From positions 4,462,603-4,526,602 of the forward strand of contig NZ_CP059735.1 of the NCBI RefSeq assembly GCF_000948975.2: DNA of 64,000 nucleotides, written 5' to 3'. This DNA comes from Thalassomonas actiniarum. GTDB lineage: Bacteria > Pseudomonadota > Gammaproteobacteria > Enterobacterales > Alteromonadaceae. Positions within the stretch are counted from its first letter, which is position 1. Each line of letters opens with the position of its first letter. Shown here in pieces: positions 51,657 through 56,181 of the stretch. The notes beneath the pieces are model-generated. The model did not search any database and was not told where the DNA came from. It saw only the letters and a list, made by a program, of their open reading frames with translations. Made by a program: the position numbers and the translations under genes.

Positions 51657-52813
51657 ATGACTGAAATTTCACCTTCGGTTGCTTCAGATCTTGCGGCTGC
51701 CGCATACAGTATTAAGGGGCCGGTTCCGAAAGGTTTCATTTTACCGCTTAATGCTGAGACAAGGAAGCATTTCAAATTTAATCTATCAGAACATATCTAT
51801 ACCGGTACTTCAGGCGGCTTTTTCTGCCGCCAGACAACAGGCTTTGTTTTAATCGGCCAAGGCTATAGCCGGGAGCATAAAAACGATCATGTAATAGCTA
51901 TCCGCGGCACGGATTCATTAGCCGATGCCCTCACCGACATTACCTACCATAGCTGTAACAGTGATAACGGCGCTTCGGTACATACCGGTTTTCAAAGTAC
52001 ATTTGCTTCGTTCAGATCCGGCTTAATGGCCTATTTCAACCAACCGGGTCTCTTTAACGGCAACAGTATTATCCATTGTGTCGGCCATAGCCTGGGGGCG
52101 CACTTGCATCCTTAACCGCAGACTGGATTAAAACAGAATTTAAAAGAAATGTTTATCTCTACACCTTCGGCGCTCCCAGGGTTGGTAAAAAAGACTATGC
52201 CATTAATAACAGTGTCCGGGTGAAAAAAATGTTTCGTTGTGTTCATGGCGCAGATCCTGTACCGAAAATGCCGGTATGGCCCTTTTACCATGCCCCTATC
52301 AATGGCCATGAATACATATTGTCCCGTGCCCAGGGCATAGATCATAAAGCTCACCTTATGGGAGATAGCCCGGGCTATATTAACACCGCAAACGTTAACG
52401 ACTGGGAAAGCTTACATTGCCAGGCCGCCTGTTCCGCCAGTCAGCGGGTGGTGCCCAACTACCAAAACCGCACTGAAAGTACCTATTCAAGCTTTTGGGC
52501 CGACAAAATTGCCGCAGCGTTAATGACGGTAATGATAGACGGCGGCGCCACAACCATTATCGCTTCTCTTCAGGCCACGGGCGCCACCATAGGTACGGTA
52601 TACGACATCATGGCCAGGGCCTTGGTTGATATCTCGAAAATCGTCGGCATGGAAAAACAACTCAAAGGCGTATTAGGCTATATGCTGGTTTTTGCCGGCA
52701 AAAGTGCCTATATACCGATTGAATTTACCTATAAATTTATCCGCTGGGTATTCACTGTCACTATCGCCCGGTTACAAAAAGCCGCAAAGCTGGCGCTAAA
52801 GCAAAACAATTAG
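51657..52813 (+). pseudogene. Class 3 lipase-like gene with single-base frameshift
   Basis: The first part (codons 1-152) runs to the lipase box VGHSLGA (Ser145) and then hits a stop at 52113-52115. If one G is added to the five-G run at 52094-52098, the frame reads on as GHSLGGALASLTADWIKTEF into RNVYLYTFGAPRVGKKDYAI, exactly the class 3 lipase consensus, and continues to 52813 (385 residues total). The C-terminal 130 residues hold amphipathic and TM-like helices. AAGGA precedes ATG 51657. It may be a true pseudogene, a phase-variable gene or a sequencing error. The downstream part also opens at 52220. Confidence 0.8.
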
Positions 52814-52889: not shown

Positions 52890-53141
52890 ATGGGACGTCC
52901 ACAAGTTGCCCCCAAAGATCAGTATGAAAGAAAGGTTCTGCTCAGCAACTTATTGCAATACGGCCTTTTCCCGGAGTTTATGGTGCGCTGTTTAACTTCT
53001 ACTGTGCGCACAGAACTGCCCTTATTGAATATTAAGGGCGGCGAGTTTCAAGATCATCGAATTTGTGGGATAAGGCCTAAAGACTGTAGCTGCCACATTC
53101 CCGACATTAGGTGGCTGGCACTTAAAGCGAATTTGGATTAG
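52890..53141 (+). CDS. Small hypothetical protein, possibly truncated
   Basis: An 83-residue ORF, GRPQVAPKDQYERKVLLSNL and onwards, ending with a Cys/His cluster (CGIRPKDCSCHIPDIRW). The LLQYGLFPEFMVRCLTS segment weakly recalls the N-terminal helices of FlhC-type activators. No ribosome binding site stands out. It lies between the broken lipase and the metallo-beta-lactamase and could be a decayed gene. Confidence 0.35.
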   Translation: MGRPQVAPKDQYERKVLLSNLLQYGLFPEFMVRCLTSTVRTELPLLNIKGGEFQDHRICGIRPKDCSCHIPDIRWLALKANLD

Positions 53142-53216
53142 ATTTTGTATCGATAATGCCACAATAAGCGGCTTAGTAATCTTTGGCTAAAATAAGCGAC
53201 AAAGGAGCTATTGACG

Positions 53217-53951
53217 CTATAGTTTCTTGTTAGAGTCCTTTGCAGACAAAGCTAATTTTTGTGTATGAGTTAGCAAACTAACATCTCCAACTTTACCATG
53301 CCCGGGAACAACTAATTTGATATCAGGGTAACGATTAATGACTTTCTGAATAGAGTTTGACCATTCACCAATAACAGCATCCCCAGTATTACCTAAACTT
53401 TTAGCGTGCAGACTTTTAACAAAACAACCGCCGAATAATATTTTTTCCTTAGGCACCCAAACAACGATATTATCTTCTGTATGTCCTGCTCCCGGGTAAA
53501 AAATACTCACGACACCATCAGCTAATTCAAATGTATTACTTGATATTTCGTCACTGGACGTTTCTTTTCGGTTTGATTTAAGCAGTTTGTTGGTTAGTGA
53601 TGTTGCATAAGTTTTTATTTTTAGATCATTTAAAAGTGGTAAATCGCCGCTAGCATCTTCATGAAAATGAGTAACAACAGTGTTTTTTAAAGTTAGCCCT
53701 TTAGCTTCAATCCACTCAATTAATTCTTTAGTTCCCTGAGTTGTCCAAGGAGTGTCAATCATATGTACTTCAGTACCATTAATAACAACGAGACCTGATG
53801 CCTCTACTAACCCCCATGGTTTAACCCTTTTAAATGAAATATGCTGATAGACGTTATCACTTAATTTTTTAATTTTAAGTTGTTTGACACTTTCATTATT
53901 TGCAAAAACAAGACAAGGAACAAGGAGTATAAGTAGAATAATTGATTTCAT
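53217..53951 (-). CDS. Subclass B1 metallo-beta-lactamase, IMP-like
   Basis: A 244-residue periplasmic enzyme with a signal peptide (1-17, cleavage after VFA). All six B1 zinc ligands are present in order: His95, His97 and Asp99 in HFHED; His157 in GAGHTEDN; Cys176 in FGGCFVK; His218 in VPGHGKVGD. Lys179 and Asn188 (LGNTGDA) match the substrate-binding residues of IMP-type enzymes, and much of the text is IMP-like (LKIKKLSDNVYQHISF, TKELIEWIEAKG). It should hydrolyse penicillins, cephalosporins and carbapenems. The gene is visibly more AT-rich than the core genes around it and stands alone beside a long inverted repeat, suggesting transfer. Confidence 0.93.
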   Translation of the reverse strand: MKSIILLILLVPCLVFANNESVKQLKIKKLSDNVYQHISFKRVKPWGLVEASGLVVINGTEVHMIDTPWTTQGTKELIEWIEAKGLTLKNTVVTHFHEDASGDLPLLNDLKIKTYATSLTNKLLKSNRKETSSDEISSNTFELADGVVSIFYPGAGHTEDNIVVWVPKEKILFGGCFVKSLHAKSLGNTGDAVIGEWSNSIQKVINRYPDIKLVVPGHGKVGDVSLLTHTQKLALSAKDSNKKL

Positions 53952-54404
53952 AGTTGAGTAGTCTCTAATGCCCCACTAACGGGGAAGTAATAGAAGCGAT
54001 GCCGGAGCAAGAACCAAGTGTTATTTGTTCCGGTTTAAACCGGTACCTATAACCACTTACTATGTTGCGCCCTTTTAGTGAGGGTTAGTATATCTTTAAG
54101 CTTTACTGGAACAATGTTCAAGTCATGATGAATTATGGCAAAAGATGGCAACTTAATATGCAGAGGGATTAGTAATACAAGATGAGTTAATTTATCAGAA
54201 AATGTATTGAAAAAACATTAAGGCTAATGTCCCCACTGCGCACTACTTCGACATTAGAGTTATATTAAGACTTAATAGAAAGCTTGCCCGTTAACATCCA
54301 GGAAAATACTGTTTACGGCATACTAGGCAAGCTGCTGCATCAGCGTTGAGACACAGCAGCTTGGCTTCTTTTAGCCGTAATTACCCGGTTTATTCCTCCG
54401 TTAT
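53952..54404. other. AT-rich intergenic region upstream of the beta-lactamase
   Basis: 453 bases between the beta-lactamase start and the SymE-like gene end. Besides the long inverted repeat it holds two further perfect inverted repeats: CTAATGTC/GACATTAG (54224-54257) and CAAGCTGCTG/CAGCAGCTTG (54328-54363). The latter may be the SymE gene terminator, although its T-tract is poor. No gene is visible. Confidence 0.55.
53965..54088. repeat. Long imperfect inverted repeat centred on CCGGTTTAAACCGG
   Basis: A 124-base imperfect palindrome. The centre is CCGGTTTAAACCGG (54030-54043). Inner arms AAGTGTTAT and ATAACCACTT flank it, and the outer ends CTAATGCCCCACTAA and TTAGTGAGGGTTAG are near reverse complements. 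It begins 13 bases upstream of the beta-lactamase start. It could be a small MITE-like element, a recombination site or a regulatory cruciform. Its ends do not meet the attC consensus. Confidence 0.65.
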
Positions 54405-55065: not shown

Positions 55066-56181
55066 TGCCAATTAACATTTAGAATGTGACATAGATGCCC
55101 ATTCTCTAGAACATAGTCTCTTAACCTGTTCAATGTCACTGATAAAGTGATTCCAAGCACGGCTACATTGCTCAACTATGTCTTCATAATTTTCAAAGCA
55201 TCGGTTCGCGAGCTCTCTTTGCCTTAACCATTGCCAAACTTGCTCTATTGGGTTTTAACTCCGGAGAATATGGAGGCAACTTTATTATCGTAATATTGTG
55301 AAAATCTTCAGCAAGCCTTTCCTGATGCCATGCGGCGCCATCAACGATAATGACTGCATGGCGACCGGGTTTGATTCGTTTAGAAATTAACGATAAATGG
55401 GCTTTTATAATGTCCGTATTCACTAAGGGTGCTATCAAAGCTTAGGTTGCACCTGTTGACGGACATAGTGCGCCAAATAAATATGCATATTTAAACTGCT
55501 GCTGTTTCACAGCACGAGGGCGAGTGCCTTTTTCTGCCCAAATGCGGGTTGTTGTATTTTGTTGGTCAAACCTTGCTTCATCCTGAAACCACACATCCAC
55601 GCGTTCAAGTGCTATATGCCCAGGGATCTTAAGGATCGTTTCTATTTGGAATTTTTTAAAACCTTTCTGTGCCTGTTCTGATTGCTTTGGCTGACAAGAG
55701 CGACTTGTGATCCAAGCTAAATTCAGTCGCTTTAACAAGCGATAGATATGTGTTAACGAGTAATCTAATTGAAAATGCCCTGCAACATACAATTGAATGT
55801 CTTTGCCAACCAGGCGACCACCATCGGCTTTTATTGCATTATCAGTGATATAAAGCTTAAGATTATCCATTTGTTCCGCCAAGATGATAGATTGCCTTCC
55901 TTTGTAATCATTACCAAGACCACTTAACCCTTTTAGCTGAAAGCACTTAACCCAGTTGCTAACCGTAACACGCCCCACTTTTAGGTAACTTGCGGTATCT
56001 TGATAATTGGCCCCATCCTGGATATGGGCTAAAGCGAGCAATCTTATACGAGTTCGTGGGTTAGCTTCTTTATTCGCTAGAGATTTAAAATCAAAATCTT
56101 GTATATCAAACAACTTCGTTCAGCCATGATAGGTCAATGAAAAATGAACACACCATGATCGAATTTATAAGTTAATTGGTA
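55066..56181 (-). mobile_element. IS630-family insertion sequence, decayed
   Basis: 1116 bases bounded by short inverted ends, TGCCAATTAAC on the left and GTTAATTGGTA on the right (ten of eleven match), each flanked by TA (55064-55065 and 56182-56183). TA target duplication and about 1.1 kb length are typical of IS630/Tc1-mariner elements. It encodes one transposase that is broken twice, so the copy cannot move by itself. Confidence 0.75.
55072..56113 (-). pseudogene. IS630 transposase with stop and frameshift
   Basis: Codons from ATG 56113 encode the N-terminal HTH (YLKVGRVTVSNWVKCF, LKRLNLAW) and the first DDE Asp/Glu region (VDVWFQDEARFDQ), up to an in-frame TAA at 55442-55444 where other members read GA then an acidic residue before LIAPLVNTD. 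After the stop the same frame continues with IIVDGAAWHQE (second Asp). At LPPYSPELKP a one-base shift is needed to reach IEQVWQWLRQRELANRCF and the end at 55072. Two independent lesions indicate decay. Confidence 0.82.

Follow-up and report, generated by a model that had tools for sequence, protein, structure and literature searches.

A VMB-family metallo-beta-lactamase gene in a small unit with conserved ends in Thalassomonas actiniarum

A complete metallo-beta-lactamase gene in the chromosome of a marine bacterium raises the question of which family of enzymes it belongs to and how it came to be there. The gene lies in a stretch of 64,000 nucleotides of Thalassomonas actiniarum (contig NZ_CP059735.1), here called the window. 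In the following, G000 is the window's own genome, G001, G002 and G003 are the other genomes of the genus, and G102 is a further genome of the family (Colwelliaceae/Alteromonadaceae). C1, C2 and C3 are contigs of the respective genome, and BBL stands for class B beta-lactamase numbering.

An intact gene of the VMB family

The earlier note had reported a complete gene at 53217-53951 of the window. This is an exact, intact open reading frame that encodes 244 aa; its strand, not specified there, is the minus strand, and the plus strand at 53217-53951 is full of stops. A residue check found all six zinc ligands claimed there (Zn1, His95, His97 and His157; Zn2, Asp99, Cys176 and His218), as well as Lys179 and Asn188, which correspond to BBL K224 and N233. 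The N-terminus, MKSIILLILLVPCLVFA, resembles a signal peptide by eye, as had been proposed, and the match to mature VMB-1 (PDB) begins at residue 17. The gene was also correctly described as AT-rich, with 34.6% GC compared to 48.1% for the whole window, and its GC3 is 22.9% compared to 50-64% in six other window genes. Its replicon, at 6.56 Mb, is the larger one in a two-contig genome of 7.49 Mb, and the gene's chromosomal location in accessory DNA of a marine bacterium was supported in every part. No promoter candidate emerged from a scan of the strand that carries the gene. At 51657-52813 of the window there is a lipase-like gene split into two frames, with homologous DNA at the same site in G001.

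The gene encodes a subclass B1 metallo-beta-lactamase of the VMB family. Identity of the window protein was 82.0% to VMB-1 (full length), 66.5% to VAM-1, 45.9% to DIM-1, 41.9% to IMP-1, 31.8% to VIM-2 and 30.9% to NDM-1, and an E value of 2e-127 to VMB-1 (PDB 6JV4), the best solved relative, excluded a chance match. The NCBIfam models for blaVMB (NF038184) and for the B1 equivalog (NF033088) scored 528 bits (cut-off 500) and 261.4 bits (cut-off 200). Scores fell below the cut-off for blaIMP (NF012147; 229.5 bits vs 460), for blaDIM_SIM_IMP (270 bits vs 288) and for the KHM, DIM, TMB and SIM models. In a maximum-likelihood tree of 47 sequences, the window protein and its Thalassomonas kin were found inside a clade of 12 rows that also holds VMB-1 and VAM-1 (support 97/97), and the IMP, SIM, KHM, DIM and TMB enzymes formed a separate clade of their own (support 99/96). 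VIM-2 and NDM-1 are long branches in this tree, and their placement is unsure. Since the phylogeny left the protein within B1, the call of an intact B1 enzyme withstood the test that the earlier note had set for it, a position outside B1. The label "IMP-like" and a place in the source pool of IMP were not supported by the comparison. An enzyme of the IMP lineage, from the direct source pool of IMP, would share the same broad B1 group and have zinc ligands, Lys and Asn identical to those of IMP-1, as the window protein does, but we find this reading hardly credible, since the low identity to IMP-1, the failed IMP cut-offs and the separate clade all point to VMB and the tree already contradicts it. 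Filing the gene as IMP-like was rejected on these grounds.

The product would be an exported di-zinc B1 enzyme hydrolyzing beta-lactams in the periplasm. By analogy with VMB-1, at 82% identity, it is most likely an active broad-spectrum carbapenemase; a VMB-1 plasmid raised the imipenem MICs of recipient strains (review PMC9604146). An MBL-fold hydrolase with a main substrate other than a beta-lactam would suit a marine host that has no known beta-lactam exposure, but this is most improbable for a protein that keeps all the B1 residues, matches VMB-1 over its full length and exceeds the B1 equivalog cut-off (261 vs 200 bits). The gene is under purifying selection across the clade, with a dN/dS of 0.12-0.23 between the window gene and those of G002, G102, VMB-1, Glaciecola and Bs31. 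Between the window and G001 genes, which have few differences, dN/dS was ~0.9, and Arg replaces Lys at BBL 224 of the G001 enzyme, so that the constraint on this enzyme is possibly relaxed.

Remains of a cassette and its marine relatives

The VMB-1 cassette of plasmid pVb1796 (IncC) adjoins an integron integrase. It begins G|TTAGAGGCCACTCAACTATGAGTTTCATC and closes in an attC starting GCCTCTAAC. The leader TTAGAGGCCACTCAACTATGAGTTTCATC is identical in the VMB-1 plasmid, Glaciecola sp. KUL10 and Alteromonadaceae bacterium Bs31, and the attC is near-identical in the three. The Thalassomonas copies have both the leader and the attC flanks of this cassette in diverged form. Upstream of the window's gene, a former neighboring cassette has been lost and has left an attC remnant (53969..54072, minus strand), whose 3' half reads CCCCGTTAGTGGGGCA|TTAGAG; the core is CATTAGAG, compared to CGTTAGAG in G002, where the crossover G is intact. 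The degenerate attC of the MBL cassette itself (53157..53235, minus strand) overlaps the 3' end of the gene and has the core CATTATCG. The crossover G has changed to A in both window cores (GTT to ATT). When attC folding was compared to shuffled sequences, z was -3.35 for VMB-1 and -0.38 for the window, where the fold is not significant; thus, the window cassette has neither functional GTT cores nor a folding attC. Judged from these flanks, the gene came to these bacteria as an integron cassette. With both cores decayed, the cassette has probably lost the ability to excise on its own.

Matches at E <= 1e-30 were found in 61 of 397 family genomes, and matches of at least 80% identity in 6 of those 397, the window's own included. 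The gene is present in three of the four genus genomes and absent from G003, and two other family genomes have copies at 84-88%. A reading of the G102 copy as a pseudogene with one TGA was rejected, as the 242 compared codons are open and the TGA is terminal. VMB-1, VMB-2 and VAM-1 were described from shrimp-borne Vibrio (review PMC9604146), the VMB carbapenemases on plasmids, and our search of plasmid records gave two with VMB-1 and three with VAM-1. The closest chromosomal copies to VMB-1 are those of KUL10 and Bs31, at 94.3% aa identity each and 92.7 and 94.6% nt identity, respectively. The VMB-1-like chromosomal cassettes of KUL10 and Bs31 lie at loci L060 (12001-12744), L072 (1834-2565) and L008 (10001-10732). 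These cassettes are a candidate origin of the plasmid VMB-1 gene; a literature search found no published origin for the VMB carbapenemases. Because the VMB-1 leader and attC recur on the Glaciecola and Bs31 chromosomes, marine Alteromonadales are a plausible source pool for VMB. Their chromosomal copies, with cassette flanks that match, offer a concrete reservoir to survey.

A unit with conserved ends at different places

The gene is held in a 1,152-bp unit (53091..54242, minus strand), where DNA homology stops at both ends in the comparison with G001 and at the right end in that with G002. Homology to G001 is confined to 54245..53091, with 94.7% identity over the unit, and homology to G002 runs from 54156 to 53091. 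The right edge is common to all three copies; the G002 copy lacks the left end of the other two, and its left edge of homology is at a G|TT-like step. By family comparison (by eye), the left end spans 54194..54242 (minus strand) and consists of TGCGCAGTGGGGACATTAG at 54242..54224 and a conserved, subterminal AT-rich stretch. The right end, TTATCGATACAAAATCTAATCC...CTAATGTCGGGAATGTGGCA (53091..53156, minus strand), was located by the homology edge and a pattern search and is a dispersed family repeat. Simple terminal inverted repeats were considered and rejected; GACATTAG is present at both ends in opposite orientation, whereas the outermost bases differ, and the ends were therefore named L-end and R-end. 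A degenerate attI-like site may be present at 54145..54165 (minus strand), where ATATTAAG|TTGCC was aligned by eye with AATAAGCTG|TTA of other units. This attI-like reading of the left end is tentative and rests on a short motif. The host attI was rejected as the source of the L-end, with which it has only the AAGCTG|TTA core in common. The L-end resembles a dif site (GGTGCGCATT...) by eye only, and we make no dif claim. A transposase at 55193-56113 of the window, of IS630-type look by eye and split in two frames, adjoins the unit.

The repeats were counted by pattern search. The R-end motif CGATACAAAATCTAATCC, with at most 1 mismatch, was found in 36 of 297 family genomes and 13 of 52 genera, with up to 18 copies per genome; the reversed control gave one match. 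CG directly precedes 21 of the 42 distinct right ends read, as expected if right ends start at an attC crossover, and other right ends have no attC before them. Hairpins before R-ends, used as an attC statistic, showed no excess (3/42 vs 2.95 when shuffled), and the CG|TT preference is the remaining signal. Paired ends mostly enclose one gene, such as a GNAT acetyltransferase, a response regulator or a ParA-like, membrane or hydrolase-like protein (by eye). Two response-regulator cargoes in one Colwellia genome (G102) are 92% identical, and their similarity stops exactly at the outer edge of the R-end. Several places thus showed conserved ends where homology stops, which is the mark of a MITE-like element or mobile insertion cassette. 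Inside the units of the family, neither a transposase nor an integrase was seen, and a non-exhaustive search found no autonomous partner with matching ends among the loci read. We know of no IS or MITE with these end sequences. The units are 0.6-2.5 kb long, often with an attC at the right end (e.g., L147, L159, L160, L162, L178, L188 and L192), and some are chained via a conserved spacer of ~70 bp.

Three Thalassomonas genomes carry units with a common right end, each at an unrelated place: 4.516 Mb of C1 in G000, 4.275 Mb of C1 in G001, and C3 in G002. The flank of the G001 copy corresponds to 4.402 Mb of C1 in G000, ~110 kb from the window's gene, and that of the G002 copy to the second contig of G000, C2. 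The window's site in G001, with a lipase-type gene on one side and a small AbrB-like gene on the other as in the window (both named by eye), is taken up by a diverged left end and then another cassette. In G000, the site of the G001 copy is occupied by L-type and R-type ends that enclose a hypothetical gene, an attC-like stretch and a ParA-like gene. At the G002 locus in G000 there was no clear pair of L-end and R-end, only a GTGGCA-like end, and no clean empty site was found. TTA stands on both sides at some unit flanks and is missing from the window's; a target-site duplication is not consistent.

One explanation is that the gene is an old, intrinsic metallo-beta-lactamase, vertically inherited in Thalassomonas (compare the claim for AMM-1), whose neighborhood changed by ordinary rearrangement and differential loss. 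Its presence in most of the genus and the 84-88% copies in two other family genomes would fit, and the identity of the window and G001 units is close to that of neighboring shared DNA (88-96%), as for an ancestral gene. However, homology ends sharply at the unit borders, the DNA flanking each copy is located elsewhere in relatives, G003 lacks the gene, the AT content is far from the host's, and cassette flanks surround the gene, which makes this rather unlikely.

The host has a full-length chromosomal IntI (453 bits, cut-off 265) ~73 kb from the gene; it lies at 4442209-4443159 of C1 in G000, 20 kb left of the window, with attC-like sites adjoining. With this integrase, an ordinary cassette could have been dropped into attG-type non-integron sites with no larger mobile unit involved. 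Off-target insertion of cassettes at attG sites is documented (cited in PMC12901181), cassettes that lie outside integrons have been named CALINs (PMC8618304), and the G|TT-like step in G002 agrees with such insertion. Nevertheless, the G000 and G001 copies have the L-end and R-end in common beyond the cassette cores, and their upstream core is broken in the same way, although the two lie in different places. Excision of the cassette therefore does not account for the difference in place. There are also R-ends that have no attC. We regard simple off-target insertion as improbable.

The best explanation of the whole, and one we think likely, is a VMB carbapenemase that entered as a cassette, was loaded into a unit, lost its cores to decay and was relocated with the unit. 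The entry of the gene as a cassette is seen in the diverged versions of the VMB-1 leader and attC-type flanks. The host's chromosomal IntI would then probably have set the cassette into a small repeated unit, one that has conserved ends and an attI-like site. Both cores have since decayed in the window's lineage, and the 1.15-kb unit as a whole would have moved among Thalassomonas genomes, as the different locations and the boundaries suggest. A wider reading, which we put forward tentatively as somewhat less than an even prospect, is that Colwelliaceae/Alteromonadaceae have undescribed units without integrase or transposase, with unlike ends and an attI-like site, that take cassettes in trans from IntI and move as units. 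VMB would be one cargo of theirs, and such movement would be a second mobility route that survives loss of attC. If confirmed, carrier units would mean a second route of cassette spread that integrase-centered searches miss. We found no report of a Thalassomonas metallo-beta-lactamase or of such end-bounded units in a literature search that covered subscription journals thinly and is weak evidence of novelty.

Comparison with known systems

VMB-1, from the Vibrio alginolyticus plasmid pVb1796, is like the window enzyme in sequence, zinc ligands, VMB cut-off and cassette origin. The window copy differs in being chromosomal, in having Asn rather than Tyr at BBL 233, in its degenerate attC and in its setting, which is a small repeated unit and not an integron. 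VAM-1, on Vibrio plasmids, belongs to the same VMB/VAM clade, but it is more distant in identity and has an ISCR1/class 1 integron-type context. IMP-1 is also a subclass B1 enzyme and has the same eight active-site residues among those checked; it differs in overall identity and in clade. AMM-1 and AMM-2 of Alteromonas mangrovi (PMC12238668) are likewise marine chromosomal B1 enzymes proposed as an environmental reservoir, but AMM-1 is 36.6% identical to VMB-1 and has no mobile context.

For the unit, CALINs (attC clusters lacking an integrase) offer a likeness in that attC remnants occur with no integrase nearby; here, in contrast, the cassette is accompanied by a recurrent unit whose ends are conserved. 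Class 1 integrons with MITE-like structures on their flanks have also been described (Gillings 2009, cited in PMC8618304). Such integron mobilization units, or MITE-flanked integrons, are likewise non-autonomous and short-ended and carry cassette DNA, whereas the units described here have two unlike ends, L and R, and are chromosomal and without a class 1 integron.
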